64,000 bases of DNA. Source: Williamsia muralis NBRC 105860 (GTDB taxonomy: Bacteria; Actinomycetota; Actinomycetes; Mycobacteriales; Mycobacteriaceae). Shown one piece after another: positions 28,567 through 59,892 of the stretch (position 1 is the first letter of the stretch; each line of letters starts with the position of its first letter). The stretch is from the NCBI RefSeq assembly GCF_001598915.1, contig NZ_BDAP01000011.1:1-64000 (forward strand), given 5' to 3'. The notes under the pieces are model-generated. The model searched no databases. It was not told where the DNA came from and saw only the letters and a list, made by a program, of their open reading frames with translations. Both the position numbers and the translations under genes were made by a program.

Positions 28567-28877
28567 CCGACACCGTCGATCCTCGCCGGATCGCGCTGCG
28601 TGCGGAAATCTCCCAACTGTTTCGGAGGGCCGACGCCCCCGGCATCGACGCGACCGAAGCGCGAACCCGGATCGCGGCCGCAGCTGCACTGACCGCCGTC
28701 CTAGCCGGCAGCGAGCCCGACCACTTCACCACGACAATCCTCGCGGCCGCCGACACCGACTCTGACCGCACCGTGGCCGCTCACCTGCGTGAGGTAGCCG
28801 CGAACCTGCCCACTGCACGCCCGGTACCTATACCCGCCGGCCAGCTGACCACAACCCAGACAGGGGCCCGATCGTGA
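28563..28877 (+). CDS. Small helical protein coupled to the coupling-protein gene
   Basis: 104 residues, overlapping both neighbours by 4 bp (ATGA before, GTGA after). Mostly helical (IALRAEISQLFRRAD, ATEARTRIAAAAALTAVLAG), no motif recognised. The tight coupling suggests it works with the VirD4-type protein encoded next. Confidence 0.6.
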   Translation: MTDTVDPRRIALRAEISQLFRRADAPGIDATEARTRIAAAAALTAVLAGSEPDHFTTTILAAADTDSDRTVAAHLREVAANLPTARPVPIPAGQLTTTQTGARS

Positions 28878-30694
28878 GCGCCATCGGAGGACGACCCGCA
28901 CCCGCACCGCCCCGCACACCGCTGATCGCGTGGTGGGTGCTCCCGCTGTGTTTGCTGGTGTTCGTGGCCACGGCGACCGTTCCGTTCGGCGGGGCCATGT
29001 CGGGCCTGCTATCCGGTCACGGCTTCGCCTGGCCAGCAGGACCATTCGGCGTGGGCGGATACAAAGCCATACTCACCTCACCCGGCGACCCGGCCGCGCG
29101 GTGGCCCTCACAGCCCGTGCCCGGCGGACCGGTCCTGACCTGGATCTGCATGGCCATCGGCCTCATCATTTCCGGCGCCTGCGCGGGAATCGCCGAATCG
29201 ATCGCCCAGAACCGGGCCCACCGCAATAAGGCAAAGACATCGGGCTTGGGCGATGACCGGGAGCTGCTGCGGTTGCAAATGAATGAGAAGGGCGCGACCG
29301 AGCGTGCACGGAACGACTTCCGGTCGCTGCAAGACCGGCCTCTGCGATCCATTGACAGCCAAGCTGCTGCGATCAGGCTCGGATCGAACGTACTGACCGG
29401 CACCCCGATCTATCTGCAACACCGCGACTGCGTCCTGTGCGAGGCACCCACCGGTGCCGGCAAAACCTCCCGTGTGGCAATTCAACGGTGTTGGGACGCC
29501 CCAGGATTCCTGCTCGCCACCACCACCAAACGTGACCTGATCGCCTCAACCTGGCGGTACCGGTCGGCGCTGGGTCAGGCAGAGATCTTCGACCCCGAAG
29601 GGCTCATCGGCCATCCCGACCCGCTGCGCTGGTCGTTGCTGGCCGGCTGCGACGACGAGGAGACAGCTGCCCGACGCGCCGAGGCCTGGGTAAAAGCCGT
29701 GCCAATGGGCGACACCAAGGACTCCTCCTTCTGGGAAGGCAAAGCGAAAACCCTGATGCGTTGCTACCTGCACGCTGCCGCACACCGCGGAAAGGGCTTG
29801 GCCGCAGTGTGTTCGTGGGTCACCAACCGGCGAGCAAGCGAGCCCCTGGAAATCCTGGACTCGGTCAATCCAGCATGGGCGGCCGAGATCAGGCAAATCG
29901 TCGACGCACAATCAGATTCCAGCGACGACATGTTCCACGCGGTGGCCACCCTGGTCGAACCCCTGTCGAATCCGCGACTGCTGGCGGCCGTCGACACCCC
30001 CGCTGACGAATCCGTGGACCTCGAACAGCTGGTACTGGGTGGGCCCAACACGCTCTACCTGGTGTCCAAGGGGACCAGCGGTTCGGTCGCCCCGATCGTG
30101 GCCGTCTTCGCCGCCGAGGTCTATCACATCCTCGACCGGGCATCGCTGCGCACACGCAGCGAGCGACTCGACCCACCAGCTCGCCTCGTACTCGACGAAG
30201 TCAACACCGTCGCACCGATCCCAGGTCTGCCGAACATGATGAACGACACCGGCGGTCGCGGTATCAGCATCTGGGCGTTCGCCCACAACAAGGCCCAGAA
30301 CATCCAACGGTGGGGCAACGCAGAGGGTGAACTGTTCACCGATTCAGCACCCGTTCGGCTGATCCTGCCGGGCCTATCCGGCGACCGTGAACTGGCTGAG
30401 CTCTCCCGTCTGTGCGGAACCATCGACGAGTACGAACCCATCACCGACCCCACCCACACACCCCGCCTACGAACCCGAAACGTCATGGAACCGAGCGACA
30501 TCCGCCAGATGCCCACCGATCATGCGTTGCTCGTCGCTCGCGGCGCTGCACCGTTCGTCGTGCATCTGCCGACCGTGTGGGAGAACAAGCCGTGGCGCAA
30601 AGAAGTCGATGCCTCTAAAACGCTGTTCGACAAAGTCGCACCCCTGCTCAGCAGTGACGGAGACGGCGACACCGACGTGCGAGTGTGGGCGTGA
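28874..30694 (+). CDS. VirD4/TraG-type coupling protein (T4CP)
   Basis: 606 residues starting at a GTG that overlaps the previous stop. Two N-terminal transmembrane helices (about 18-37 and 88-107) precede the ATPase domain: Walker A APTGAGKTS at 191-199, FDPEGL, and Walker B RLVLDEVNTVAPI with GGRGISIWAFAHNKAQ, all characteristic of VirD4/TraG. It links the relaxase-DNA complex to the secretion channel. Confidence 0.92.
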   Translation: MSAIGGRPAPAPPRTPLIAWWVLPLCLLVFVATATVPFGGAMSGLLSGHGFAWPAGPFGVGGYKAILTSPGDPAARWPSQPVPGGPVLTWICMAIGLIISGACAGIAESIAQNRAHRNKAKTSGLGDDRELLRLQMNEKGATERARNDFRSLQDRPLRSIDSQAAAIRLGSNVLTGTPIYLQHRDCVLCEAPTGAGKTSRVAIQRCWDAPGFLLATTTKRDLIASTWRYRSALGQAEIFDPEGLIGHPDPLRWSLLAGCDDEETAARRAEAWVKAVPMGDTKDSSFWEGKAKTLMRCYLHAAAHRGKGLAAVCSWVTNRRASEPLEILDSVNPAWAAEIRQIVDAQSDSSDDMFHAVATLVEPLSNPRLLAAVDTPADESVDLEQLVLGGPNTLYLVSKGTSGSVAPIVAVFAAEVYHILDRASLRTRSERLDPPARLVLDEVNTVAPIPGLPNMMNDTGGRGISIWAFAHNKAQNIQRWGNAEGELFTDSAPVRLILPGLSGDRELAELSRLCGTIDEYEPITDPTHTPRLRTRNVMEPSDIRQMPTDHALLVARGAAPFVVHLPTVWENKPWRKEVDASKTLFDKVAPLLSSDGDGDTDVRVWA

Positions 30695-37617: not shown

Positions 37618-38020
37618 CGCACCATAACCCGGCCACGGCCGTGGTGGAAGAAACGCGCCGCCCCCAAAGTCAGAAGATCTGCCAGAGGTGTGTCAGAACT
37701 AATCACTCACAGTAAAGCTGTGGGATCAAACAAGCAGGTCATGACCGAAGGGCATGGCACAAGGCGATGGTTCGAAGAACCGAGATCAAAAATCGGGCAC
37801 AGAGCAGACAGCGGAGACAGACAGGGCGAAAAGACGGTGCAAGGCCCCCCGGGGCCGGCAACACCGGGATTCGACCACCAGGCGACAACGGTCTGCCAGA
37901 ACCCCCCAACGGCCGCGTCAGCGGGTAATGTTGGGGCTGCATTCAACTGGCGTCGAGTGCTGCAAGAAGTTCCGTATGCACGTACGGGGCTTACACAGGT
38001 TCAGATGAGGGAGGGCCCTC
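37618..38020. other. Probable origin of transfer region
   Basis: A 403-bp gap between divergent relaxase and accessory genes, the usual place for a MobF oriT. It contains the palindrome ccacggccgtgg (37633-37644), hairpins cacag-taaag-ctgtg (37708-37722) and ggttc-gaa-gaacc (37769-37781), and ggccccccggggcc (37843-37856). The nic site cannot be assigned by eye. Promoters for the flanking genes must also lie here. Confidence 0.5.
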
Positions 38021-46141: not shown

Positions 46142-47547
46142 GGGATCTTTAGGAGAATGGCTGCCCCGCCGCTGTGGTGGCTCTGGTCGCTAATTGAGAT
46201 CTGACGCTGCTCGTACTGACGCGAATGGGCTGTGGTCGCTGCTCTAAGGACCTGACGACGGGGTTGCCTATGGCCGAGGCTTTTCGTCGGAAGGCAGCAG
46301 GTATATGGCCCTTACGAGACCGGATTCGATGGCAGCGTGGATCGGTATTGATGTCGGCAAGTCGCATCACCATGCGTGCGTGATCGACTCTGAAGGGACC
46401 AAGCTTTGGGACCAGAAGATCGCCAATGACGAGACCAAGATCGAGGCGTTGATCGACCGTGTCGTGACCACCGTAGAAGGACCGGTGGTGTGGGCCGTTG
46501 ACCTTGTTTCGCCCGCCGCCGCGCTGCTGAATACCACTTTGCTGCTGCGCGAGCAGACCGTTGTTTATGTGCCCGGCCGCACCACCTCGGTGATGGCTCC
46601 GGTGTTTCGCGGCGAGGCCAAGACCGATGCCAAGGACGCTCGGGTGATTGCAGACACGGCTCGGATGCGGCGGGACCTGTCGCCGGTCGTGGTCGAAAAT
46701 GATCTGGTTGCGGAGCTGCGGCAGTTGCATGCCTACCGCACCGATGTGATGGCCGACTGGGTGCGGGGCATCAATCGGTTGCGCGACATGCTCGGCAGCA
46801 TCTTCCCAGCTCTTGAGGCTGCGTTTGACTACTCGACTCGGTCGCCGCTGATCCTCGTCTCGCGGTTCTGCACACCCGCGGCGATCCGTAACGCCGGCGA
46901 AGCTGGCGTGGCGAAGTACTTGCGTGAGAACAAGGCCTGGGCCAAAGGCATCCCCGCGATGGCCGAGGCCGCGGTCGTAGCGGCGAACGGTCAGCGGCAT
47001 CGGCTGCCCGGCGAAGCCGGCACCGCACGGCTGATCTGCAAGTTGGCCGCCCGGCTGCTTGAGATCGATCGCGAGATCAAGGATCTCGATAGGGAGATCG
47101 CTGCGCTGTTCCGGACGCATCCGTCGGCGAGAATCATCGAATCGCTGCCAGGAATGGGTCCTGGTCTCGGTTCGGAATTCCTCGTCATCACCGGCGGCAA
47201 CATGGTGGCCTTCCGCGATTCCGGGAAGCTCGCCTCCTATGCCGGGCTGGTTCCTGTTCCTCGCGATTCCGGTCGAATCACTGGCAACATGCACCGACCG
47301 AAACGCTATAACCGAAGACTGCGACGGGTGTTCTACATGGCCGCTCTCTCGAGCCTGAAAACACAAGGGCCGTCTCGAGAGTTCTACGACAGGAAACGCG
47401 CCCAGAACATGGTTCACACCAAGGCTCTGATCGCCCTCGCGCGGCGACTCGTCGACGTCCTGTGGGCACTGCTGCGTGATGGGCGGGAGTTCACTGTCGA
47501 CGTGCCAGGAGCCGCTACCGCTGCTTGACATCGTCATTAAGATTCTC
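46142..47547 (+). mobile_element. IS110-family insertion sequence
   Basis: One intact transposase gene flanked by non-coding ends. The 7-mer gattctc occurs at 46135-46141 and 47541-47547 and marks the likely junction or core repeat; ggagaat (46151-46157) is inverted relative to attctcc (47542-47548). The left non-coding end (about 160 bp) is long enough to encode a bridge RNA as in IS110-group elements. Exact ends are estimates. Confidence 0.75.
46305..47528 (+). CDS. IS110-family transposase
   Basis: 407 residues. N-terminal DEDD RuvC-like domain (IGIDVGKSHHHACVID, the conserved KTDAKDARVIADTAR) and C-terminal transposase_20 domain with SLPGMGPGLGSEFLVITGG, FASYAGLVP-type KLASYAGLVPVPRDSG and the Ser-containing end. 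It acts as a bridge-RNA-guided recombinase in known members. Start assumed at MALTRP; MAAWIGID is also possible. Confidence 0.94.
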   Translation: MALTRPDSMAAWIGIDVGKSHHHACVIDSEGTKLWDQKIANDETKIEALIDRVVTTVEGPVVWAVDLVSPAAALLNTTLLLREQTVVYVPGRTTSVMAPVFRGEAKTDAKDARVIADTARMRRDLSPVVVENDLVAELRQLHAYRTDVMADWVRGINRLRDMLGSIFPALEAAFDYSTRSPLILVSRFCTPAAIRNAGEAGVAKYLRENKAWAKGIPAMAEAAVVAANGQRHRLPGEAGTARLICKLAARLLEIDREIKDLDREIAALFRTHPSARIIESLPGMGPGLGSEFLVITGGNMVAFRDSGKLASYAGLVPVPRDSGRITGNMHRPKRYNRRLRRVFYMAALSSLKTQGPSREFYDRKRAQNMVHTKALIALARRLVDVLWALLRDGREFTVDVPGAATAA

Positions 47548-47589
47548 CTCGTTGTGGGCGACGCTGTCGGCTTCGCAGTCGCTCAGTGC

Positions 47590-47865
47590 GGGGTGGGCGG
47601 TCAACCCCGAAGAGCAGCGGCGGCCGGAAGCCACTTTCACGCGAGCGCAGCGAGTGTGGGTGTGAAAGTGGTTGGAGCGCACGGGCGTAGCGCAGCGGAG
47701 AACGGGCGGAAGCGCCGGTGCGTGGGTTGACCGGTCGGGCCCCCGGACTGAGAGAATGAGAAGACGCGCGCCCCTTGGTGACCACACGGACGAAGCTCGG
47801 GCCGAAGGCCCGACTAGTCGGGTGGCCGCGCAGCGGACATACCGTCACGCTGCGCGGCCACACCG
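47590..47865 (-). repeat. Structured leader repeat, class B copy 1
   Basis: Nested and adjacent stems: ggtcaaccc/gggttgacc (47599-47607 and 47724-47732) encloses the core hairpin ccactttcac/gtgaaagtgg (47631-47640 and 47662-47671) around gagcgcagcgagtg. Then come cgggcc-gaa-ggcccg near 47799 and a 14-bp stem gtggccgcgcagcg/cgctgcgcggccac (47823-47862). Class B copy 2 keeps the stems with compensatory changes. On the minus strand it leads toward the IS110 insertion and the 52-aa gene. Confidence 0.7.
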
Positions 47866-49970: not shown

Positions 49971-50003
49971 GGTGACCCTCCCGGCCTTGGTGCGGCAGAC
50001 CTG

Positions 50004-50280
50004 GTGTCCGCCAACTTTTTTGCCCTTCTGGCAATGGAGATAAAGACCGGCATAGGAGGACAGAACACAAGACCGCGGGCGGAAAGTTTTCACGCGGAGC
50101 GCCAGCGGAGTACGGGTGTGAAAAGTTTCCGAGCCCGAAGGGCCGCAGCCGGGGCCTTGTGTGGCGGACGACGCCGGTCATGATCGGAAGGCCAGAAGGG
50201 ACAAAACGACCCAGCCCGGCCGTCAGGCCGGGTCACAGTGCGCCGCAGGCGCTCGGTTCAGGTGACCGCGCAGCGGGCAA
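50004..50280 (-). repeat. Structured leader repeat, class A copy 1
   Basis: Nested complementary arms: ttttgcccttctggc (50018-50032) with gccagaagggacaaaa (50191-50206); gaccggc (50045-50051) with gccggtc (50173-50179); acacaag (50065-50071) with cttgtgt (50156-50162); core hairpin ttttcac (50087-50093) with gtgaaaa (50118-50124). A crossing pair gtccgcc (50006-50012)/ggcggac (50163-50169) would make a pseudoknot. Hairpins cccggcc-gtca-ggccggg (50215-50232) and gcgcc-gca-ggcgc (50240-50252) follow. Confidence 0.78.
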
Positions 50281-50287
50281 ACAAAGA

Positions 50288-50318
50288 AGGCCGGCCACCT
50301 AGATCAGGTGACCGGCCT
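50288..50318 (-). terminator. Terminator upstream of class A copy 1
   Basis: Stem aggccggccacct / aggtgaccggcct (one mismatch), loop agatc. The minus-strand 3' flank is tctttgtttg, so it stops minus-strand transcripts before the repeat. Confidence 0.65.
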
Positions 50319-50347
50319 AAACGGAACGGGTGTGGCTCCACGCGATC

Positions 50348-50412
50348 CCGCCGGAAGCTAGCTGTGCGGGAGCTGCGCTACGCCGCGGGAGGGCTCGGTG
50401 CCGCGGCAGCTC
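50348..50412. repeat. 65-bp repeat C, copy 1
   Basis: Contains tgtgcgggagctgcgcta (50363-50380) and cgcggNagggctcggtg, repeated at 59830-59892 on the far side of class A copy 4. Partly self-complementary (ccgcgg flanking gagggctcggtg). Confidence 0.6.
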
Positions 50413-50653
50413 TTGAATTGAGTAAGAGCTAGCCCGGATGCGGCGGATTCCGTCAGAACGTGGTCGACGTACCCGCTGTGTTGGTCGGACTAGGTCTCAT
50501 CCGAGAAAATCCGTCTGCGGACAAGTCAGGGGTGTTGCAGGGCCATTCCCTGTCGCCTTACCCAGTAGTATGGAGAACACTTCCCTTCGAAGGGGAAGCA
50601 TTGTCTGGGAGTACCTTCGGGCTCTCCCTGTCCCCGATATGAGGAAGGAGGTA

Positions 50654-50770
50654 ATGGCTATCGCCGCCGGAAATAAAAAAATCCGGAACGGCTGGACCAA
50701 GTTTTTTGTGCTGACCCAGCTCGTCCGGAATGGATATCAGTTCATCCGTTGGTTCTCTGATCAGATGTAG
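50654..50770 (+). CDS. 38-aa cationic, aromatic-rich peptide
   Basis: ATG with an excellent ribosome binding site (gaggaaggaggta). The peptide begins MAIAAGNKKIRNGWTKFF, continues VLTQLVRNGYQFIRW and ends FSDQM: six basic and one acidic residue, two Trp, one Tyr and four Phe. No signal peptide. Size and composition resemble leaderless bacteriocins or small membrane toxins. The direct repeat ttctctgatcagat brackets its stop (50753 and 50774). Function is inferred from composition. Confidence 0.5.
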   Translation: MAIAAGNKKIRNGWTKFFVLTQLVRNGYQFIRWFSDQM

Positions 50771-51122
50771 TTCGATTCTCTGATCAGATCGTCGAGAGGA
50801 ACATCTAACCGTGTCCGTCGTCGTCATTGCCGTGGCGGCGGCGGACCCCTTCACTGTAACGAGATTTTTTTTCTTTTGCCAGATCCACAAAGCGCGTCGT
50901 TTTAACGAATCGTCCGTCGGTCGTTAGGCCTGGTAGATGACGTTTTGCTTGGTGTGACGACAGGTCACTTTGGTGACCATTCGTATCGGCTGCGATACCA
51001 GGCCATCGCTCGCGACTGAGGGTGTCGCCTCATTCCCAAATGGGTTCTGGCAGCGCCTGTTACGGATCATTTGGTGATCGGTTTGGTGCTGTGACACATG
51101 TCTGGTCAGTGAGGGCGTCCAC
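50771..51122. other. Gap with a foldable segment
   Basis: 352 bp without a gene. The segment 50927-51004 has an outer stem ggcctggta/taccaggcc, hairpin ggtcac-tttg-gtgacc (50963-50978, one spare base) and competing gtatcg/cgatac (50983-50998). A T run (50865-50875) precedes it. Confidence 0.4.
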
Positions 51123-51479
51123 TCAGTAGCGGTGATCGTGGTTGAGCTTTGAGGCGAGGAGTGCTGCGGCGGTGGTGAGTGCTGCGGTGGTCACGATGAT
51201 GAGGACGCCGACGGGGAGGGACACGGGGCTGCCGAAGAACGCGCCGACGAAGATGCTGAGGAGGAATGCTGTTGGGCCTGCGACGATGAGTGCGCCCAAG
51301 CCGGCTTTCTCGTCTCTGGTGGTGCGGTTGTAGATCGCGACGAAGAGGCCGATGGCTGCGATGGTGAGCGCGAGTCCGAATCCGGTCCATTGGAGGGCGT
51401 TGAGGACCCCGTCAGATAGGGGTGGACGCACTGGTTCGATCGTGTCGATGCTGCGAATGTCGTTGTGACTGGACGCCAT
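51123..51479 (-). CDS. Small membrane protein
   Basis: 118 residues with three hydrophobic helices (LQWTGFGLALTIAAIGLFVAIY, GALIVAGPTAFLLSIFVGAFFG, SLPVGVLIIVTTAALTTAAALLAS). Last gene of the operon behind class A copy 2. Unrecognised. Confidence 0.6.
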   Translation of the reverse strand: MASSHNDIRSIDTIEPVRPPLSDGVLNALQWTGFGLALTIAAIGLFVAIYNRTTRDEKAGLGALIVAGPTAFLLSIFVGAFFGSPVSLPVGVLIIVTTAALTTAAALLASKLNHDHRY

Positions 51480-51619
51480 CAGTCAGAACCTTTCACTGTT
51501 GTTGGTGCTGTTCGGTAGTCGAGGATCGGTGAGCAGAGCTATGCCGTGGCGTTGCTGGTTGCTGGGTGTCCCCTCCCGTTGGCCAGGGTGCCATATGTGT
51601 CTGACGGCGGGGAGTGCTG

Positions 51620-51934
51620 TCAGTAGAGCGTTGGTTCTGGTGAGTAGGCGGTGCCGGTGTCGCGGACGTGGATGGCTGCGTTGGTGAGCCACTCGCGGTC
51701 GATGTTGCCGTGTTCGTCTCTGCCTGCGCCGGCGAGGAGTAGGGGGTTGTCGTCGATGCTGATGGTGAGGAATGGTGCGCCGTTGGGTTGGTGGCCGGCG
51801 AGGTGGTCGAGCGCAGCGAGTGCCGCGTCGCCGGCGGCGTGGTGGGCGTCGGTGTAGGTGGTGTCGGCGTTGGCGATCAGGATGCCGTTGTGGGGGTCGG
51901 TGAGGGTGAATGCGGTGACGCTCCAGCAGATCAT
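51620..51934 (-). CDS. Small protein, unrecognised
   Basis: 104 residues starting MICWSVTAFTL after aaggaga. Beta-rich opening (AFTLTDPHNGILIANADTTYTDAHHAAGDAALAALDHLAG) and ISIDDNPLLLAG. Second gene behind class A copy 2; a strong hairpin lies between it and the first gene. Confidence 0.6.
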   Translation of the reverse strand: MICWSVTAFTLTDPHNGILIANADTTYTDAHHAAGDAALAALDHLAGHQPNGAPFLTISIDDNPLLLAGAGRDEHGNIDREWLTNAAIHVRDTGTAYSPEPTLY

Positions 51935-51978
51935 CAGTGAGGTCTCCTTGTCGGCGAGTGGTTGTGGTGGTGACAAGG

Positions 51979-52062
51979 ATGCCGCGCGGCCCCTCGGGCC
52001 GCGCGGCATGTGTGGGTCCCCAGACCCGGTTGTGCAGAGTGGTCCGGGTCTGGGGATAAGCC
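51979..52062. terminator. Two strong hairpins
   Basis: atgccgcgcggccc-ctc-gggccgcgcggcat (about 51979-52010) followed by ccccagaccc / gggtctgggg (about 52018-52057). They separate the genes at 51620 and 52067 and would reduce read-through. Confidence 0.55.
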
Positions 52063-52066
52063 TGGG

Positions 52067-52735
52067 TTAGTGCTGGTCGGCGGGTGGGACGGGGCCGCTG
52101 GCGAGCCATCCGGTGCCGGTGATTTTGTAGCGGTGGGCGGCGCGTGGTCGCCAGCTTTCGGCGGCGGAGTTGTCGGCGAATTGGTCGCCGTCGTCGAACG
52201 TGGCGATGGCGAGTTTGTGGGCCTTTTTCATGGTGGCGACCATGGTGTCGATGGCGGTGGTGTCCATCAGGGCCAGGGTGAGCGGCGACATGGTGAGCCG
52301 GACGTAGGGGAGCACTTTCTGGGTCGCGGGGTGGGTGAACTGTTCACGGGCAGCGGCACCGAGGGGGCCTCGGGTCCAGCGCAGGGTGGTCTGCATTTCG
52401 GGGTATCCGCCGGGCAGGATGCCGGGGAGCATGGTGGTTTTGGCCATGCCCATGCGGGCCTGGCGGGCGGTGGCGAACAGTCCCAGGACGTGCTGGACCT
52501 GTTCGCAGCTCAGGAATTGCATGGTGACGCCGGGGAATTGGACTTGGACCATGGCGACGCCGGTCCCGGCCGCGATGACGTCGACGCGGGCGCGTTGTTC
52601 TCCGCAGACGGTGACCGCGACGTTGGTGACTACACCGTTGGTGCGGAGCGGTAGCGGGGTCTTGATGTGTTCGGGGCGGCTGCTGGCGATGCGGCGTGCT
52701 TCTTGGGCCTGTGCTCGTGCTTTCCCTGCGACCAT
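52067..52735 (-). CDS. First gene behind class A repeat 2, unrecognised
   Basis: 222 residues from the ATG at 52735 after gagggaga. Helical start (KARAQAQEARRIASSRPEHI), then a mixed domain (VVTNVAVTVCGEQRARVDVIAAGTGVAMVQVQFPG, VLPYVRLTMSPLTLALMDTT). Soluble, no motif. Position directly behind the structured leader suggests early expression after transfer. Confidence 0.65.
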   Translation of the reverse strand: MVAGKARAQAQEARRIASSRPEHIKTPLPLRTNGVVTNVAVTVCGEQRARVDVIAAGTGVAMVQVQFPGVTMQFLSCEQVQHVLGLFATARQARMGMAKTTMLPGILPGGYPEMQTTLRWTRGPLGAAAREQFTHPATQKVLPYVRLTMSPLTLALMDTTAIDTMVATMKKAHKLAIATFDDGDQFADNSAAESWRPRAAHRYKITGTGWLASGPVPPADQH

Positions 52736-52763
52736 GGCGACGTCTCCCTCGAAATCGGTGGCA

Positions 52764-53072
52764 GACCTGGTGTCCGCCAACTTTTTTGCCCTTCTGGCAA
52801 TGGAGAGGTGGACCGGCAGAGGACAGAACGGAGTGGCAGGTGATCGGACAGTTTTTCAGCGAGCGCAGCGAGTGCGGGTTGAAAAAGTGTTCGACCCCGC
52901 AGGGGCGATAGTCACCTGTTCGAAGTGGCGGACGAACCGGTCACACTCGGAAGGCCAGAAGGACAAAACGTGACCGTGCCGAAGGCCGGTCACGTCACGC
53001 GGATCTCGGCCGCAGGCCAATCATTGCGCGCCGCCAGGCGCTCCGTTGAGGTGACCGCGCAGCGGGCATGGT
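52764..53072 (-). repeat. Structured leader repeat, class A copy 2
   Basis: Same layout as copy 1 with changed but still complementary arms: caggtga (52837-52843)/tcacctg (52912-52918) replaces acacaag/cttgtgt. tttttca/tgaaaaa replaces ttttcac/gtgaaaa, and gtgaccg/cggtcac replaces cccggcc/ggccggg. The crossing pair gtccgcc (52772-52778)/ggcggac (52927-52933) is intact. The right end runs into the 3' end of the next gene. Confidence 0.78.
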
Positions 53073-53315
53073 GGTGCTTGCGTCCAGGAACGCGGTGGCG
53101 ACGGGTACGAAGTCGCCGGGCTCGACGTCGAAGCCTTCCCCGTGCGTGACGCAGTGGTGCAGCACGGCGAGGCGGGCCAGGGCGGTGCCCAGGTCGGGGT
53201 GAGTTTCGGTCCACGCGTTCGCGACGTAGTCGGTCCACCACAGAACGAACGTGTCTCCGTCTGGGGAAACGGTGGCGTGCAGGTCGGGGAGGGTGAGGGT
53301 GGCAACGGCGTTCAT
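52995..53315 (-). CDS. Small protein whose 3' end reads into class A repeat 2
   Basis: 106 residues starting MNAVATLTLPDLHATVSPDGDTFVLWW; an acidic, beta-rich domain of about 80 residues, then a basic tail (SPQRSAWRRAMIGLRPRSA) encoded by the right end of the structured repeat. The tail may be acquired sequence rather than native. Function unknown. Confidence 0.55.
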   Translation of the reverse strand: MNAVATLTLPDLHATVSPDGDTFVLWWTDYVANAWTETHPDLGTALARLAVLHHCVTHGEGFDVEPGDFVPVATAFLDASTTMPAARSPQRSAWRRAMIGLRPRSA

Positions 53316-53367
53316 GGGGGTTCTCCTGGATCGGGGGCTGTGGCTCAGCACATTTCGGGACGGTGGG

Positions 53368-53718
53368 TTAGGTGACGGTGCGGCAGTGGCGGCATTCCCA
53401 TTGCCCGCTGATGCGGCTGCAGGTGCGTCGCTGCTCGCAGAGCCAGCACCGCTGGTTGGCTCGGGTGATGGTGTCGCCGGTCTGATCGGCGGCCGCTGCG
53501 GCGGCGGCCACGGTGAGCTGGGCGCGGTGGGCGGCGCGGACCTGTTGGTCGCGGTCGTGCTGCTCGGCCTCGGTCAGCGGCGGCCGGGTGCCGGCACGCA
53601 GGTAACCGGTGAACGCCCGCGTGCAGTCCGAACAGACGTCGCCTTGCTCGGCGATCGGGTTGGCGCACCCGGGGAGCACGCACCGGGCGAACAACTCCAG
53701 TTCGGTGACGCTGTTCAT
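53368..53718 (-). CDS. Small double zinc-finger-like protein
   Basis: 116 residues from the ATG at 53718. Two Cys clusters: CVLPGCANPIAEQGDVCSDC near the start and CWLCEQRRTCSRISGQWECRHC at the end, separated by an Ala-rich helix. Probably binds zinc. Second gene behind class A copy 3. Confidence 0.62.
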   Translation of the reverse strand: MNSVTELELFARCVLPGCANPIAEQGDVCSDCTRAFTGYLRAGTRPPLTEAEQHDRDQQVRAAHRAQLTVAAAAAAADQTGDTITRANQRCWLCEQRRTCSRISGQWECRHCRTVT

Positions 53719-53788
53719 GTCGGGTGCCTTTCGGTGATGATGAGCGGCAGGCGGGCCACCGGGTCGGGGGGTGGCCCGCCCACCCACA

Positions 53789-54226
53789 TCAGTGATCGGT
53801 GTGTCCTTCGCCGTCTGCGGTGTCGCGGCGTAGGTGCGCGGCCAGGAACGTGTCGGCGGCGGTCGGGCTTCCGGCCGCCCGCAACGCGGCGACGGTCGCT
53901 TCGGCTTCGAGGCAGGTGAGGGCACCGGCGATGTCGTCGGCCACGTCGAGGCCGCCGAAGATGTCGGCCCACACAGTCAGCGCGTCGGGTGCCTCGGCCG
54001 GGGTTCCGACGTCGACGGCGCTCTGCCAAAACTCCAGCGCCTCAGCGTTTTGGTCGCTGTAGGGCGGCAGCCCGGTTCCGGCCCACGCGGGCTGTATCTC
54101 ATGGTTGATGGAGGACAGTTGGTCCCCGCGCCACGCTTCGGCGGATCCGAGCACGGCCAGGACCGATGCGACGGCGAGCTGGGCGCGGCGCGGGTTGATG
54201 CGATTGGCGATCTCGGCAATGTCCAT
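53789..54226 (-). CDS. First gene behind class A repeat 3, unrecognised
   Basis: 145 residues from the ATG at 54226 after gagggagac. Helical (MDIAEIANRINPRRAQLAVASVLAVLG, VADDIAGALTCLEAEATVAALRAAG), soluble. The frame extends upstream into the repeat but the ribosome binding site fixes this start. No family recognised. Confidence 0.62.
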   Translation of the reverse strand: MDIAEIANRINPRRAQLAVASVLAVLGSAEAWRGDQLSSINHEIQPAWAGTGLPPYSDQNAEALEFWQSAVDVGTPAEAPDALTVWADIFGGLDVADDIAGALTCLEAEATVAALRAAGSPTAADTFLAAHLRRDTADGEGHTDH

Positions 54227-54258
54227 GACTGGCGTCTCCCTCGGGTCGGTGCGGCAGA

Positions 54259-54540
54259 CCTGGTGTCCACCCACTGTTTTGCCCTTCTGGCAAGGGAGAG
54301 GTGGACCGGCTCAGGAGGACAGAACACAAGACCGTGGGCGGAAAGTTTTCACGCGGAGCGCAGCGGAGTGCGGGTGTGAAAAGTTTTCGAGCCCGCAGGG
54401 CCGCAGCCGCGGTCTTGTGTGGCGGACGACGCCGGTCACACTCGAACGGCCAGAAGGGACAAAACGATGAAACCGGCCGCCAGGCCGGTTACAGTGCGCC
54501 GCAGGCGCTTCCGATCAGGTGACCGCGCAGCGGACATTCC
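54259..54540 (-). repeat. Structured leader repeat, class A copy 3
   Basis: The longest intact arm pair: acacaagaccg (54324-54334)/cggtcttgtgt (54410-54420), 11 bp. P5 equivalent aaccggcc-gcca-ggccggtt (54471-54490), compensatory relative to copies 1 and 2. gcgcc-gca-ggcgc at 54496-54508. The crossing pair is 6 of 7 here (gtccacc 54265-54271 with ggcggac 54421-54427). Confidence 0.78.
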
Positions 54541-54729
54541 CGGGCACCGGGTCGGCACGGAACCGCGAGAAGGCCGGCGGACTTCCGTCTGAAAGGGCTC
54601 CCCGCCTCAGAGCGGAGCATGCGGGGAACGGCCGGCCATCGTGTCAACTACGAACGCACCCGGCCCTGCGGAACCCGTGCTGCATAATCCGTCCTGGGCA
54701 GCCATCAGCACTGCCATCAGGGGGATCAC

Positions 54730-55332
54730 ATGAAATTTGTCGGCATGGTCGCGCTCGCCACTGCGGCATGCATGCTCGTCGCCTGCACGACCCAGCCACC
54801 GCCGGACACCTCGGAGAGTGGCTACATCGGGGTCGAGATCGGTTCCGGTGAGACGGCCACAACGCCCGACCCCGGTGCGACGGTTCAACGCGCCACCATC
54901 GAAACCACCGTGGACGGCCAACCGATCACCATCATCGAGTTCACCAAGATCTGCACCCGCAGCGGTGACGGTGATGCCGTGACTGTGTCCGCCGAAACTC
55001 ACGGCTACGGGTACGACGACAACAGAAACAACAACTACAACACCGGAGTCGGCCTCGGAAGCTTTGACATCGAACTCGTCGGACTTCGTAACGCCGCCCC
55101 CACCGTCAAGCGGGTCAACATCAGCCAGCCCACCGGCCCAGACGCTGGTATCTGGGTGTACGTCGCCAACAACGTTGAAGGCGAGGGCAACACCGGATCG
55201 GCCACCGCAACAATCGAATCCCCAGACACCTACACCGTCACCGGAAGCGCACCCGACCCCCTCGCCCCGACGCGCACGAAGACGTTCACCGCCAGAGCAA
55301 CATGCCAACAACCGGCATTCCCGGCACCGTGA
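54730..55332 (+). CDS. LpqH-family lipoprotein
   Basis: 200 residues with lipobox LVACTT. The mature domain has the order of mycobacterial LpqH (19-kDa antigen) proteins: DGQPITIIEFTKICTRSGD near the start, VGLGSFDIELVGLRN, then NTGSATATIESPDTYTVTGSAPDP and a final FTARATC Cys that pairs with the earlier one. A plasmid-borne copy on the plus strand among minus-strand genes. It is followed, TGATG-overlapped, by a shorter relative. Confidence 0.8.
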   Translation: MKFVGMVALATAACMLVACTTQPPPDTSESGYIGVEIGSGETATTPDPGATVQRATIETTVDGQPITIIEFTKICTRSGDGDAVTVSAETHGYGYDDNRNNNYNTGVGLGSFDIELVGLRNAAPTVKRVNISQPTGPDAGIWVYVANNVEGEGNTGSATATIESPDTYTVTGSAPDPLAPTRTKTFTARATCQQPAFPAP

Positions 55333-55805
55333 TGAACACTCCGAGCACCAGAATCAACATCCCCAGAGCCGTCCTCGGCCTCGTCTGCGTACTGATGTGG
55401 ACGCTTACCGCCTGCACCACCAGCGACGGTGACGTTGGATCATCGAGCGCCACCGAATTGCGTTCAAGCAACACGTCCACCACCACTGCCGGCCCGCCCG
55501 TCCTGATCGACACGGCAGCGCCCGACGACCTCGTCCCGCAACTTCCGATCGTCCTCACCGTCGACGGCCAAACCTTCACCATCACCGAACGCGACGGCGG
55601 ACACGACTACAACTGGGACAACGGACCCAACCCCGACTACGGATTCTCAGAGAGCGCGCCTCAAACGGCACAGATCTCAGCAGACGACGCAACGAAGGTT
55701 CGACCCCCACCATCCCCGCCGACCGGCACACTCGGCCACTACCGCAACAGCATCCGCGACTTCCTCGGCATGATTAACCCCAACACCGGATACATCGAGG
55801 AGTAG
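55332..55805 (+). CDS. Truncated LpqH-like lipoprotein
   Basis: 157 residues, lipobox LTACTT, starting at an ATG overlapping the previous stop. VLTVDGQTFTITERDG matches the first strands of the upstream LpqH-like protein, but the second half of the domain and its closing Cys are missing and the C-terminus (HYRNSIRDFLGMINPNTGYIEE) is unrelated. Likely a decayed or recombined paralogue. Confidence 0.6.
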   Translation: MNTPSTRINIPRAVLGLVCVLMWTLTACTTSDGDVGSSSATELRSSNTSTTTAGPPVLIDTAAPDDLVPQLPIVLTVDGQTFTITERDGGHDYNWDNGPNPDYGFSESAPQTAQISADDATKVRPPPSPPTGTLGHYRNSIRDFLGMINPNTGYIEE

Positions 55806-55887
55806 CGCAGCAAACGAGTCTGCAGATCAGCGACACCGGGGTTCAGTGGTCCGTACTGGACTCCGTCGATGGTGGTGCAGACGTCAT
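55739..55887 (-). pseudogene. Frameshifted small gene behind class B repeat 2
   Basis: An ATG after gaaagg (55887) starts a 14-codon frame. One base out of register the sequence reads like a normal small protein (CTTIDGVQYGPLNPGVADLQTRLL). A single-base indel probably broke it. It overlaps the 3' end of the convergent lipoprotein gene. Confidence 0.3.
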
Positions 55888-55924
55888 GATGTGGCCTTTC
55901 GGTGGGTGGCGCTGACGCCTCGCG

Positions 55925-56180
55925 GTCGGGCTGGCCGGGGTGGGCTGTCAACCCCGAAGAGTCCCGGCGGCCGGAAGCCTCTTTCACGCGAGCGCAGCGA
56001 GTGGGGGTGTGAAAGTGGTTGGAGCGCACGGGCGCAGCGCAGCGGAGAACGGGCGACACCGCCGGGGCGTGGGTTGACAGGTCGGGGTCCCCGGCCAGCC
56101 ACCATGAGAAGGCGCGCGCCCCCTGTGGTGACCACCACGGCGAAGCTCGGACCGCCAGGTCCGAGAACGCGGACTGAGGG
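55925..56180 (-). repeat. Structured leader repeat, class B copy 2
   Basis: Stem ctgtcaaccc/gggttgacag (about 55945-55954 and 56070-56079) encloses the core hairpin ctttcac/gtgaaag around gagcgcagcgagtg. Then ctcggacc-gcca-ggtccgag (about 56146-56165), where copy 1 has a gggcc/ggccc stem. These are compensatory differences from the copy at 47590. Confidence 0.7.
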
Positions 56181-56187
56181 GGAGAGA

Positions 56188-56280
56188 AGCCTGGCCAACG
56201 CGACACAGGTCTGGGGAGAAACGTGTCGGGACCGGGGGGAGTGGTCCCAGGACCGGGGGGATGGTCCGGTTGGCCAGGCT
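56188..56280. other. Branched palindromic structure
   Basis: Outer 12-bp stem agcctggccaac/gttggccaggct (56188-56199 and 56269-56280) enclosing two tandem hairpins with identical ggacc/ggtcc stems and G-rich loops (56229-56247 and 56250-56267). It adjoins class B copy 2. Confidence 0.65.
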
Positions 56281-56343
56281 CTCGGTGAGCACGCTAGCAG
56301 GACGAACTGACATTGCCCATCTGAGCGGCCACGTCGGGGCGAA

Positions 56344-56371
56344 GCGGGACAGGTCGTCTCACCTGTCCCGC
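56344..56371 (-). terminator. Hairpin terminator after higA
   Basis: Stem gcgggacaggt/acctgtcccgc (11 bp), loop cgtctc, about 50 bp past the HigA stop on the minus strand. Confidence 0.55.
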
Positions 56372-56423
56372 ATCGTTATTGCGTTGAGTTGGATGTCCGT
56401 CAGGACGTTGTAGCGGATCGGGG

Positions 56424-56717
56424 TTAGGCGTCTTCGAGGACTTTGACGGTGGACAGGTCGGTGGTTTCTTTGGCGACTTCGAGGTCGTAATGGGTTTGCA
56501 TGTTGAGCCAGAAGGTGTCGCTGATGCCGAACATTTTGCCCAGGCGCAGCGAGGTGTCGGGGGTGATGGCCCGCTTGCCGTGGATGATTTCGTTGATACG
56601 CCGGGGCGGGACGTTCATCAGATCGGCCAGTCGGCGCTGCGAGAGGCCCATGGGCTGCATGTAGTCCTCGAACAGGACGATGCCGGGATGGATCGGGGGG
56701 TGGGCTGTGGTGGTCAT
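56424..56717 (-). CDS. higA: HigA-family antitoxin
   Basis: 97 residues: HPGIVLFEDYMQPMGLSQRRLADLMNVPPRRINEIIHGKRAITPDTSLRLGKMFG is the classic HigA HTH. It binds HigB and represses the operon. It is encoded downstream of the toxin gene, the usual higBA order. Confidence 0.92.
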   Translation of the reverse strand: MTTTAHPPIHPGIVLFEDYMQPMGLSQRRLADLMNVPPRRINEIIHGKRAITPDTSLRLGKMFGISDTFWLNMQTHYDLEVAKETTDLSTVKVLEDA

Positions 56718-56772
56718 GATGGGCGTTACCTCTGATTGGTAGTCGTTCTTGGTGTGTTGGTGTGGTTTTGGG

Positions 56773-57054
56773 TTAGTGGTAGTCGACTATTTCAACGTCG
56801 GCGGGTCCGTGTGCAGTCCAGGTAAAACAGATTCGCCACTGCTGGTTGATGCGAATGCTGTGCTGCCCGGCCCGGTCGCCTTTGAGCGCTTCGAGTCGGT
56901 TCCCCGGCGGGATCCGCAAATCTGACACCCGGTCGGCGGCGTGCAGGGCCAGGAGTTTGCGGTAGGCGCGCTGTTGCAGGTCCGGGTCGAACTTCTTGAC
57001 CACTTCCCGCCGCCACACCTTCTCGGTTCGAGAGTCGTGGAAGGACTGGATCAC
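56773..57054 (-). CDS. higB: HigB/RelE-family toxin
   Basis: 93 residues from a GTG at 57054. IQSFHDSRTEKVWRREVVKKF, LRIPPGNRLEALKGDRAGQHSIRINQQWRICFTW and VEIVDYH are characteristic of HigB mRNA interferases. It stabilises the plasmid by post-segregational killing. Confidence 0.92.
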   Translation of the reverse strand: MIQSFHDSRTEKVWRREVVKKFDPDLQQRAYRKLLALHAADRVSDLRIPPGNRLEALKGDRAGQHSIRINQQWRICFTWTAHGPADVEIVDYH

Positions 57055-57062
57055 CCCTCCAG

Positions 57063-57081
57063 TGTAACGCGTACCGTTACA
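57063..57081 (-). promoter_or_regulatory. Likely HigA operator
   Basis: Perfect inverted repeat tgtaacg-cgtac-cgttaca 8 bp upstream of the higB start. Position and symmetry fit autorepression by HigA. Confidence 0.6.
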
Positions 57082-57182
57082 GGGGTCAAGTGATGGATGG
57101 TCTCGGGTCGGGCGCTGGTCGACCGTCCCAACGCAGGCGGGGGCGGGGCAGGTGGTGCCCACCCGCCCCGCCCCAAACCTGT

Positions 57183-58811
57183 CTAGCTGATGTTGATGTC
57201 GTCGGCGTTCATGTCGCCGGTGACCACTTTTTCGATGTCGGACAGGGCGTATCCGAACGCTTCGGTGAGGAATGTCAGGTAGCGGGTGCGTCCTTCGCCG
57301 ATGCTGCGCAGGTATTCGTGGCCACCGCGCCAGGCGTCCTTGGGCAGGTTCGCCTCGTGCGCGGCGCACGTGATCGCCAAGGCGATCAGCTGCGCGCGTT
57401 CGCCGGTGGCTCCGTCGAGCGCTTCGATGGGGCCGCCGCCGAGCAGGTCGGCTGCGATCTCCTTGGCGTTGGCGTCCTGGCGTGCGGCGTTGTACAGATC
57501 GGCGTTGTGCCACATCGTGGTTGCCAGAAACGCCGCGACCACAGCGGCCTTACCCTTGGGCAGGGTTTTACGGCCGAAGGCCTCGGTCAGCTTGTCCCGG
57601 CGCACCGTCTGCGCCGCCACACCCAACTTGTTGAGCGTCTTGACCTTGCGTCGTTCGCGGGTCTCGGCGTCTTTGTGGGCCTGCTCGGCCTCGGTCAGCG
57701 GCCGATCTTTCGGGGTGCTCTTTTTGCTTGACCGGTTCTGCTGGTCCCACTCCCACGCGGTCAGTAATCCGGCCTCTTCGTAGCAGCGGTGAAACCACAC
57801 CACCTCAGCCGTGCAGCTCTCGGTCCGGGTCACTGTGCGCGGATCGTGGTAGCCCTCTTCGGGCTTGAGGTCGGCGTCTTCTTCACCGTCGAGGTCCCAG
57901 TCGATGTCGTCGCGGTCGAGTGCGACTCCTTCGGCGCTGGTGTACTCGGTCCGCCACCGCGCCGACAGGAGCGCGAGCAGGTGATCGGGGTCAAGATCGG
58001 CCACGGCGGCTTTGCTGCCTTCGGCGTCGACGAGCTGATCGAGGCGGCGGTAGCCGCTGACAACGTCGCTCCGGTCGGTGGTGGCGATAAAGCCCTGGGC
58101 GGTCAGTTCATCGCGAGCGGCCCTGATCGCGGCGCGTGCCGGTGCGGTCTCCTTGAGCTCGGCGGCTTTGTGGTCGAACCGGCCCTCGGCAGCGGCGGCG
58201 ACCAGCTCGGCCACGGCCTCGGGATCGTCGTCGTACTCGGCCAAGATCATGCCCTGGTCCAGGGTGAGGTTCGCGGCATCGACCGCGCTGCGGGCGGTCT
58301 GGGAGGCTGCGGTGGCCAGCGCTGCATCGACGGTTCTTTTGTTGGTGTGCAGCGATTTGGCGATCTTGGTGGCCGACAAGCCGGTCAAGGACAGTTGCTC
58401 GACCGCTGCAGCCTTCTCCGATGCTTTGAGGTCGGCGCGGGCTTCGTTGGCGATGACCTGGTCGATGATGCGGCGGCGGGTCCGCTCGGTGTCGTCGCTC
58501 TCGGCCTGATCGGCCGCGACCACATAGACCGGGATCGATGTCAGACCGGCCTCACGGGCGGCGAGCATCCGGCGTTGGCCGTCTCGGACCTTCACGGTGC
58601 CATCGGCGTCACGGACGGCGTACAGCGGCAACCGGACACCGGTAGCGATCGAGGCGATGAAGTCTTTGCCCAGCACCGGATCGGTGCGCACGTTGTCATC
58701 CAGGACCAGCTCGGCCGGGTCGATATGCAGCAGCTCCCCGGTAGCGGCGGTGATGGTCTCGACAGCAGTGGTCTCGGCGTCGGGGGTGATGGTGGCGGTG
58801 TTGTTTCCCAT
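57183..58811 (-). CDS. ParB/Spo0J-type nuclease-domain protein (large)
   Basis: 542 residues. N-terminal ParB/sulfiredoxin-like domain (LVLDDNVRTDPVLGKDFIASI, AVRDADGTVKVRDGQRRMLAAREAG with GQRR), an HTH (LTGLSATKIAKSLHTNKRTVDAAL) and a long C-terminal region of about 300 residues. No parA gene is adjacent, and the size exceeds classical ParB, so it more closely resembles the ParB-like proteins of plasmid leading regions than a partition protein. Third gene of the operon behind class A copy 4. Confidence 0.8.
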   Translation of the reverse strand: MGNNTATITPDAETTAVETITAATGELLHIDPAELVLDDNVRTDPVLGKDFIASIATGVRLPLYAVRDADGTVKVRDGQRRMLAAREAGLTSIPVYVVAADQAESDDTERTRRRIIDQVIANEARADLKASEKAAAVEQLSLTGLSATKIAKSLHTNKRTVDAALATAASQTARSAVDAANLTLDQGMILAEYDDDPEAVAELVAAAAEGRFDHKAAELKETAPARAAIRAARDELTAQGFIATTDRSDVVSGYRRLDQLVDAEGSKAAVADLDPDHLLALLSARWRTEYTSAEGVALDRDDIDWDLDGEEDADLKPEEGYHDPRTVTRTESCTAEVVWFHRCYEEAGLLTAWEWDQQNRSSKKSTPKDRPLTEAEQAHKDAETRERRKVKTLNKLGVAAQTVRRDKLTEAFGRKTLPKGKAAVVAAFLATTMWHNADLYNAARQDANAKEIAADLLGGGPIEALDGATGERAQLIALAITCAAHEANLPKDAWRGGHEYLRSIGEGRTRYLTFLTEAFGYALSDIEKVVTGDMNADDINIS

Positions 58812-58837
58812 GGTGTTTTCTCCTATTGTGTGAGAGA

Positions 58838-58872
58838 AGCAACCGGGCCGAGTAACAGTCGGCCCGGCTGCT
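58838..58872. terminator. Strong hairpin upstream of the ParB-like gene
   Basis: 14-position stem agcaaccgggccga / tcggcccggctgct (one mismatch), then ttttcttta on the plus strand. It lies between two minus-strand genes and could attenuate expression of the ParB-like gene. Confidence 0.6.
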
Positions 58873-58899
58873 TTTCTTTATGGGCCAGAAGCGGTTTCG

Positions 58900-59259
58900 C
58901 TATCTGGGGTTTGTGGGGGTGTGGTCGACGGGGTTGGTGTCGGCGTCGGCGAGCATGCAGGCGGCGATCACGCGCACGTTCGACAGTCGGGCGGCTTCGT
59001 CCAAATGTTTGGTGGCTTCGGTGTGCCACGCGGCGCGCTGGTTCGGGTGGGTGGTCGATTCGCCCTGACGGATGTACATCGCGGCCTCGGCGGTTTCCCG
59101 TTCAATGGCCTCATCCAGGGCGGTGGCCCACTCTTCGGCCTGGGCATTCATGGCCTCGTGGAAGCTGATTCCGCGTAAACCGGCCATCATGCGGACCGCT
59201 GCCAGGTTCGGGGTTGCGACGGTCAGGGCGTCGAGTTCGGTGTAGGTGTCGATGCTCAT
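58900..59259 (-). CDS. Small helical protein, unrecognised
   Basis: 119 residues (LNAQAEEWATALDEAIERETAEAAMYI-like central helix, ATKHLDEAARLSNVRVIAACMLADAD). ATG overlaps the stop of the preceding gene (ATGA). Soluble; unknown function. Confidence 0.6.
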   Translation of the reverse strand: MSIDTYTELDALTVATPNLAAVRMMAGLRGISFHEAMNAQAEEWATALDEAIERETAEAAMYIRQGESTTHPNQRAAWHTEATKHLDEAARLSNVRVIAACMLADADTNPVDHTPTNPR

Positions 59260-59450
59260 GGGGCGCGCTCCTTGTCAGTGGGTGAAGTGGGGGGGTCGAT
59301 GACGGTGGCGGCGGCTACATGGGCTTCGGGGCTGGTAACCGCGAGGTCGAACAGGACGAACTTGGTGTCGTCGTCGAGATCGGTGTAGGCCGGATCACCG
59401 GGCATTTTCGTGTGGTTGTAGACGTGCTTCATCGCGGGCGTTCGGGTCAT
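59256..59450 (-). CDS. 64-aa protein, first gene behind class A repeat 4
   Basis: Starts MTRTPAMKHVYNHTKMPG. Another ATG 7 nt upstream lies closer to the gggaggc ribosome binding site but opens only a 20-codon frame, so translation here may be competed or coupled. Acidic middle (AYTDLDDDTKFVLFDLAV). Function unknown. Confidence 0.5.
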   Translation of the reverse strand: MTRTPAMKHVYNHTKMPGDPAYTDLDDDTKFVLFDLAVTSPEAHVAAATVIDPPTSPTDKERAP

Positions 59451-59479
59451 AGAACATGGCGTGCCTCCCTTGTGTTGTC

Positions 59480-59765
59480 GTGTCCGCCAGCTTTTTTGCC
59501 CTTCTGGCAAGGGAGATAAAGACCGGCTCAGGAGGACAGAGCACAAGATGTGGGCGGGAAGTTTTTCAGGGAGCGCAGCGAGTGCGGGTTGAAAAAGTTT
59601 CCGAGTCGGCAGGCCGGAGCGCAGCGGAGCCAGGTCTTGTGCGGCGGACGACGCCGGTCATGATCGGACGGCCAGAAGGGCAAAAGGGCTCTCTGGCCGA
59701 TAGGCCGGTGTCACTGCGCGCCGCAGGCGCATCCGAGTAGGTGACCGCGCAGCGGGCAAACAAAA
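59480..59765 (-). repeat. Structured leader repeat, class A copy 4
   Basis: Arms: gtccgcc (59482-59488)/ggcggac (59643-59649) crossing; ttttgcccttctggc (59494-59508)/gccagaagggcaaaa (59671-59685); gaccggc (59521-59527)/gccggtc (59653-59659). gcacaaga (59541-59548)/tcttgtgc (59635-59642) is an A-T to G-C compensatory change at the outer pair relative to copies 1 and 3. Core tttttca/tgaaaaa; gcgcc-gca-ggcgc at 59718-59730. Confidence 0.78.
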
Positions 59766-59799: not shown

Positions 59800-59829
59800 A
59801 GGGGGAGGGGCCCGGTCGTGAGGACGCTG

Positions 59830-59892
59830 GGAGCTGGTTGTGCGGGAGCTGCGCTAGGTCGCGGTAGGGCTCGGTGTCGCGGAAGCCCTGGC
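59830..59892. repeat. 65-bp repeat C, copy 2
   Basis: Second copy of the sequence at 50348-50412 (shared tgtgcgggagctgcgcta at 59839-59856), again just right of a class A repeat and its terminator. Confidence 0.6.

Follow-up and report, generated by a model that had tools for sequence, protein, structure and literature searches.

In the portions available of the literature consulted, experimental tests of promoters that work from single-stranded DNA (ssDNA) are described for plasmids F and ColIb-P9 alone; the elements of ColIb-P9 are numbered ssi1-3. According to the sections available, the F element, Frpo, folds, rebuilding -10 and -35 boxes, and drives early expression (PMC9849209, PMC11541004). 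Here we analyzed a conjugative-plasmid-like stretch of 64,000 nucleotides from Williamsia muralis NBRC 105860 (contig NZ_BDAP01000011.1, positions 1 to 64,000 of the forward strand; the window), which contains four copies of a structured element upstream of minus-strand genes. We consider it highly probable that each element is a predicted Frpo-like ssDNA promoter of a plasmid leading region, a confidence set slightly lower because the polarity of transfer is itself predicted.

As far as the accessible text describes the known systems, these elements resemble Frpo and ssi1-3 in their predicted folding of a template strand, in their putative place in the leading region, and in recurring ahead of leading genes, ssb being an example of these. 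The genes likewise point toward the origin of transfer (oriT), which is a predicted one here, and lie on the tra strand. In contrast, a distant blastn search with copy 3 over 72,556 plasmid records matched 38 of them (18 from Rhodococcus, 17 from Prescottella, and 3 from Nocardia) and none outside these three genera, and no DNA similarity to Frpo or ssi was found in this comparison, which was made by blastn and not directly by profile. Copy 3 also lacked a blastn match in phages. As far as compared, the elements further differ in their P1-P2-P3-P5 stem, DNA GNA loops, and possible pseudoknot. The elements very likely work like Frpo but are, by these sequence comparisons, not a detected homologue, which would place a mechanism known from Escherichia coli plasmids in a family without detected sequence kinship. 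Gram-positive plasmids of the Bacillus pLS20 family also carry long repeated sequences, the EGeRS, that regulate establishment genes, but the transferred strand there is described, in the part of that paper available, as the non-template strand, whereas here it would be the template; ssDNA promoters were judged impossible on pLS20 by the same strand criterion (PMC8708921). Like the cis-regulatory RNAs in Rfam, the elements have a conserved, covarying structure 5' of genes, but they have no family matches, and the strand evidence described below favors DNA.

In the portions available, two Frpo/ssi surveys relied mainly on similarity to known or candidate Frpo/ssi, with one adding a structure-guided search (few islands), and their main texts contain no word beginning with Actino or Rhodococcus. 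We found no description of an actinobacterial ssDNA promoter among the papers listed from the open-licence literature searched, preprints not covered. In the same literature, Frpo together with Rhodococcus returned nothing, and Frpo together with Actinobacteria returned only papers whose titles and opening abstract lines were judged unrelated; in the part available of another paper, Frpo is merely cited (PMC12614216).

A conserved fold with covarying stems

The original prediction, an earlier reading of this DNA, proposed four copies of a repeat with complementary arms, and both blastn and a covariance model place all four. With copy 1 (50000-50290) as query, blastn matched the other copies at 52766-53068, 54259-54536, and 59480-59764. 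On the gene-sense (minus) strand, the core comprises stems P1, P2, and P3, with one internal loop after P1 and another after P2, followed by the small hairpin P4 and the long hairpin P5. The sequence does contain the complementary arms that had been quoted. The gene-sense arms are TTTTGTCCCTTCTGGC / GCCAGAAGGGCAAAA in P1, GACCGGC / GCCGGTC in P2, and CACAAGACCG / CGGTCTTGTG in P3 of copy 3. An array of small hairpins of ~75-100 nucleotides (nt) lies outside P1 on the side away from the gene, with arrays similar to that of copy 1 adjoining copy 2 (to about 53068), copy 3 (about 54537), and copy 4 (about 59760). Just past copies 1 and 4, we also observed a 65-bp repeat (50349-50413 / 59825-59889; 85%).

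With a covariance model (R1) built from 28 sequences, the wider search that had been proposed detected relatives in 44 of 251 genomes of the same family, which represent 10 of 31 genera. An order-wide draw of 298 genomes yielded 6 positives, 1 of them outside the family, and up to six copies occurred on one contig. From 219 cmsearch matches, which included weaker opposite-strand ones at the same places, 150 were aligned; we used the 127 rows that did not overlap and spanned 150 nt or more, of which 80 remained after a 90% identity cut, and the promoter and loop tables (n = 78 each) were drawn from these 80. A divergent group has another P1 (CATCTGGC / GCCAGATG) with a layout that by eye is unchanged. 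Separately, a shrunken 86-nt element on a 5.25-Mb contig (L132 2173-2258, genome G008) retains P1 and most of P2 but has lost the inner hairpins. The window also contains a second repeat (47570-47744 / 55917-56091; 88% identical) with partial model matches at 47621-47708 and 55946-56079, which may represent a reduced form of the element or a second class.

In a sequence-only MAFFT alignment of 28 sequences, 89.0% of stem cells paired versus 82.1% after shuffling, and pairing fell to 32-55% when partners were slid by one to three columns (50-55% for one column). The covariation score was 0.187 versus 0.078 in shuffles, and changes on both sides occurred in 19 of 45 pairs versus 12.1; 0 of 500 shuffles reached either value. 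The number of further pair types was unexceptional (31 versus 28.2; 65 of 500 shuffles). We then applied an R-scape-like phylogenetic null, in our own version that replays the substitutions of the tree at random positions, to an alignment fitted by the covariance model. At E<0.05, 23 of 45 pairs were significant when 80 sequences were used, and 14 of 45 when the set was the 54 type-I sequences. Among all column pairs, 8 were significant, of which 6 were structural. The other two were 203/251, outside the modeled P5 pairs, and 196/325, the position of a G-G mismatch that had been described as kept. Of 80 elements, 50 indeed have this mismatch, G-G on the template strand and C·C on the gene-sense one, but it is not universal, as 24 have an A-T pair at that position. 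The covariation proposed for stems under selection as folded RNA or ssDNA is confirmed in the wider alignment, and strand asymmetry favors ssDNA of the + strand.

The consensus structure was drawn by hand from single folds of sequences in the same set because RNAalifold recovered only 21 pairs from the plain MAFFT alignment (P1 and portions of P2 and P3); this hand-set structure is inherited by the model and by part of the covariation count. DNA folding gave z scores of -4.50 for copy 1 and -4.35 for copy 4. A predicted crossing pair (GTCCGCC/GGCGGAC) had a mean of -9.77 kcal/mol for cognate arms versus -9.01 (standard deviation 0.19) for swapped partners, a value that 0 of 2000 permutations equaled in a test that ignores relatedness. 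These results lend moderate support to the pseudoknot. Rfam gave no match in the window and, over seven loci, a single chance-level match (E=0.34) outside the element.

Strand asymmetry and promoter-like geometry

The identity of the folding strand, the function of the element, and its promoter geometry go beyond what the original prediction claimed. Non-Watson-Crick stem cells on the gene-sense strand were A·C in 198 cases and G·T in 65 (196 versus 41 without P4), counts that cover the elements alone with no known RNA beside them as a control. A·C on this strand is G·T on the opposite, template (+) strand, and G·U is the wobble that RNA tolerates. Any fitting bias should favor G·U on the gene-sense strand, as this was the strand used in building the model. 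Counted as events on the tree, changes from Watson-Crick to A·C numbered 81 versus 27 to G·T (p = 1.9e-7). In the cell counts, the lean is seen in P5 (47 A·C versus 1 G·T), P3 (110 versus 21), and P2 (29 versus 6).

Loop types gave a second asymmetry. P4 loops were of GNA/GNNA type in 40 of 78 elements on the template strand and in 1 of 78 on the gene-sense strand. Considering stems of at least 4 bp, cores contained 35 such loops closed by c-g on the template strand versus 0 on the gene-sense strand, and the 100-nt flank contained 107 versus 1, whereas the 60 nt toward the gene contained 0 versus 3. Composition of the core alone predicts a ratio of ~2 to 1. Loops with C or T as their third base (GTCA, GATA) do not fit the GNRA rule of RNA. 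GNA/GNNA loops with at least two G-C pairs are described, in the part of the source available, as extraordinarily stable DNA mini-hairpins (PMC4686876). We considered UNCG tetraloops on the RNA strand, as some P4 loops hold TTCG or TGCG, but in our reading the stem registers with a TNC triloop there. In the rest of the loci outside the elements, GNA/GNNA loops were also biased to the template strand (240 versus 130), which may reflect composition or further unrecognized elements.

The template strand folded more stably in 80 of 80 elements with DNA and RNA parameters alike. Because wobble polarity and loop type are strand asymmetric, ssDNA of the + strand is favored over gene-sense RNA, and the folded molecule is most probably this strand, the template of the downstream genes. 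These data represent covariation-level evidence for functional secondary structure in DNA rather than RNA.

On the template strand, in 5' to 3' direction, the apex-to-base arm carries CANNNT at the junction of P2 and the internal loop. The A at -11 was present in 78 of 78 elements and the T at -7 in 76 of 78, with -10 free; -11A and -7T are key sigma-70 contacts. Upstream, TTG occurred at a spacer of 16 in 46 elements and of 18 in 11 (57 of 78 together), versus at most 3 of 78 at any other spacer from 8 to 31. We calculated pairing probabilities from the DNA-strand ensemble without the pseudoknot, in a numbering that includes a zero. Mean pairing was 0.70-0.90 at the -35 positions, 0.96 at -17 to -13 (0.75 at -15), and 0.93 at -12, then 0.11 at -11, 0.49-0.63 at -10 to -8, and 0.86 at -7 and -6, followed by 0.14-0.31 at -5 to -1 and 0.92-0.98 at nominal +2 to +8 (0.98 at +2). 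Fork-junction DNA binds polymerase, and the single strand is predicted by this model to rebuild -35 and -10 elements with a fork-junction pairing profile. The first T of TTG was conserved while its stem partner drifted (entropy 0.27 versus 1.10 bits).

Predicted transfer polarity, proposed mechanism, and alternatives

The window encodes a MOBF-type relaxase, and we examined how elements and relaxase genes are arranged in relatives. Of the 44 genomes with an element, 35 were searched for the TrwC domain; 19 of these have it, and it is present on 17 of 65 element-bearing contigs. On all 17, elements and the relaxase gene were co-stranded, and on 15 all elements lay, by contig coordinates, upstream of the relaxase gene, with at least one element on the far side in the other two. 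Elements shared a single orientation on 28 of 29 multi-copy contigs, the exception being the 5.25-Mb contig. A predicted oriT motif was found at 14 of 14 relaxase loci examined among 37 TrwC places (11 exact copies of GAGGTGTG and 3 near variants), a raw count without a chance level that includes close relatives. The motif lies on the complementary strand upstream of the relaxase gene, preceded at several loci by a small hairpin (by eye). Plasmid F has, between traM and its leading genes, GCAAAAACTTGTTTTTGC-GTGGGGTGT-GG on the transferred strand (T-strand). By analogy, nic in the window is predicted after 37691; comparable nic and hairpin detail for the R388 oriT was not found in the part available of PMC4853378. 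On this F-like analogy, the + strand is predicted to be transferred first and would therefore be the template of the minus-strand genes.

Element ends lay 44-54 nt before a same-sense start codon, as chosen by us, in 47 of the 115 elements with a downstream open reading frame (ORF) of at least 70 amino acids (aa). ORFs of this length occurred on the downstream side in 115 of 127 elements and on the divergent side in 85 of 127, so that ORF presence alone is weak evidence. After near-duplicates and spurious-looking frames were dropped, 54 of 109 distinct downstream ORFs were scanned, with matches to DUF4192 (13), the ArdC N-domain (8), Peptidase_M78 (6), and LPD29 (2), single matches to ParB_N, HTH_Tnp_1, DUF2786, DUF7168, and DUF5888, and no match for the others. 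According to Pfam, the ArdC domain is an antirestriction factor. The leading region of F contains an antirestriction gene, ssb, and a ParB-like gene.

We propose a model in which the relaxase would nick near 37.7 kb and the + strand would go into the recipient with its 5' end leading. Along this strand, each element would then fold into a hairpin that rebuilds promoter DNA, with the -35 element in P3, a P2 duplex reaching to -12, an unpaired A-11, an open region from -5 to -1, and P1 as the downstream duplex. The promoter being open already, RNA polymerase of the recipient would bind it and use as template the left arm and then the + strand, so that minus-strand genes may be transcribed before the complementary strand exists. 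The early products would be establishment genes, in relatives including antirestriction genes, and second-strand synthesis would remove the fold and shut the promoter off. Computation shows the fold, its covariation, the strand asymmetry, the promoter-like geometry, and the linkage to the relaxase and to genes on the same strand, whereas we infer such transcription from ssDNA, its timing, the nic position, and hence the transfer polarity. More broadly, actinobacterial conjugative plasmids probably have a class of ssDNA promoters of their own, with a fork-junction open promoter and hyperstable DNA-specific GNA loops, several of which on each plasmid would drive an early establishment regulon. 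If true, this dissimilar Mycobacteriales family would show that early transcription from the incoming strand arose, or has persisted, far outside F and ColIb-P9. In rhodococcal and nocardial plasmids, the elements would also mark the leading region and draw attention to uncharacterized establishment genes (DUF4192, LPD29, and others), and strand-asymmetric covariation, combining wobble polarity with loop type, would be a general discriminator of folded DNA from folded RNA in genomes.

Covarying stems and the spacing of many elements before a start codon would also suit a cis-regulatory structured RNA made from the minus strand, a riboswitch- or attenuator-like 5' untranslated region (UTR) controlling the downstream genes. 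We set this explanation aside as improbable, chiefly because of the wobble polarity and of the loop types found on each strand, since the RNA strand carries A·C rather than G·U and almost no GN(N)A loops in P4. The better folding of the template (partly composition), the Rfam results, and the diversity of downstream families also argue against it, and it leaves the conserved -11A and -7T unexplained. A single-strand origin or priming site (ssi/sso), at which the fold of the transferred strand primes second-strand synthesis instead of, or besides, gene expression, would use the same strand and fold; Frpo is described as both, the title of Masai and Arai (1997), cited in PMC11541004, also names primer RNA synthesis, and the flanking hairpin array would fit. 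We consider this quite improbable, as up to six copies on a contig, often ~50 nt before a start codon, suit promoters better than origins. Highly improbable is a double-stranded DNA site (a cruciform or repressor-binding repeat) or a mobile repeat, which would account for several copies on the same plasmid but predicts neither the strand asymmetry of wobbles and loops nor the near-uniform orientation.

Several observations weigh against Frpo-like ssDNA promoters. P1 showed no strand asymmetry (10 A·C versus 12 G·T), and P4 leaned the opposite way (2 versus 24), which in our view is partly misalignment. Composition accounts for much of the energy asymmetry between strands: shuffles gave -4.5 of the -9.5 kcal/mol difference with DNA parameters and, with RNA parameters, -11.9 of -17.6. 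TTG at a spacer of 16 or 18 was missing in 21 of 78 elements, including copy 2, in which TTG was not found at the -35 spacing seen in copies 1, 3, and 4. Position -12 was C in 66 of 78 instead of the usual T, and the spacer from -28 to -19 was partly paired (0.27-0.67) unless the pseudoknot forms. Compared with the first T of TTG, the second differed less from its partner (1.02 versus 1.46 bits), and the partner of the G was the better conserved (0.95 versus 0.70 bits, G versus partner). F carries two 90%-identical repeats (548 bp) where Frpo1 and Frpo2 are described, but the published Frpo hexamers (-35/-10) were not located in the expected arm of these repeats, leaving no yardstick, and strand-energy differences in F were small (-72.4 versus -71.6 and -76.7 versus -73.4). 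In the window, 12-22 kb separate the elements from the predicted oriT; on another contig (G180:C5), they are 57-127 kb away from the relaxase domain. To these points are added the makeup of the oriT motif count and the dependence of our nic prediction on the position of nic in F.

Features of the window

Coordinates are collected in Table 1. A short ORF starting at 59457 precedes, by eye, the first substantial ORF after copy 4.

Table 1. Features of the window. The strand of each core (-) is the sense of the downstream gene; the folding strand is inferred to be +.
Feature	Position	Strand	Basis or remark
Coupling protein, TraG/TraD type	28874..30694	+	transfer region
MOBF-type relaxase-helicase, 1494 aa	33133..37617	-	TrwC domain + AAA_30
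Predicted oriT	37671..37694	+	small hairpin CAGA-AGA-TCTG, then CCAGAGGTGTGTC
Gene after copy 1, 193 aa	49389..49970	-	LPD29 domain
Copy 1 pseudoknot arm GTCCGCC	50006..50012	+	complement GGCGGAC at 50163-50169
Copy 1 core, P1..P1'	50018..50205	-	covariance model
Copy 1 candidate -35 TTGTGT, P3 right arm	50157..50162	+	sequence, TTG spacing
Copy 1 candidate -10 CATGAT, P2 / internal-loop junction	50179..50184	+	
Copy 1 flanking hairpin array	50206..50282	+	loops GTCA, GCA, GCA (GNNA/GNA type), by eye
Gene after copy 2, 223 aa	52067..52738	-	no family match
Copy 2 core, divergent P3	52784..52968	-	covariance model
Copy 2 candidate -10	52942-52947	+	
Gene after copy 3, 145 aa	53789..54226	-	no family match
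Copy 3 core	54277..54463	-	covariance model
Copy 3 candidate -35	54415-54420	+	sequence, TTG spacing
Copy 3 candidate -10	54437-54442	+	
ParB-like protein, 542 aa, same-strand gene run after copy 4	57183..58811	-	TIGR00180, E 2.7e-8, under curated cut-off
First substantial ORF after copy 4, 119 aa	58900..59259	-	no family match
Copy 4 core	59494..59685	-	covariance model
Copy 4 candidate -35 TTGTGC	59637-59642	+	sequence, TTG spacing
Copy 4 candidate -10	59659-59664	+	

Other genes lie among these features. A Fic-domain protein (41789-42586, minus strand) is encoded between the predicted oriT and the elements, and a segment near its gene is duplicated (41544-41728 / 42636-42820; 185 nt, 76%). 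An IS110-family transposase (46305-47528, plus strand) lies inside an otherwise largely minus-strand stretch. Between copies 3 and 4, there are two plus-strand ORFs (54730-55332 and 55302-55805), the first with a lipoprotein-like start by eye. An HTH_3 gene beside a small ORF without a family match (56424-56717 and 56792-57016, minus strand) possibly forms a toxin-antitoxin pair with it.

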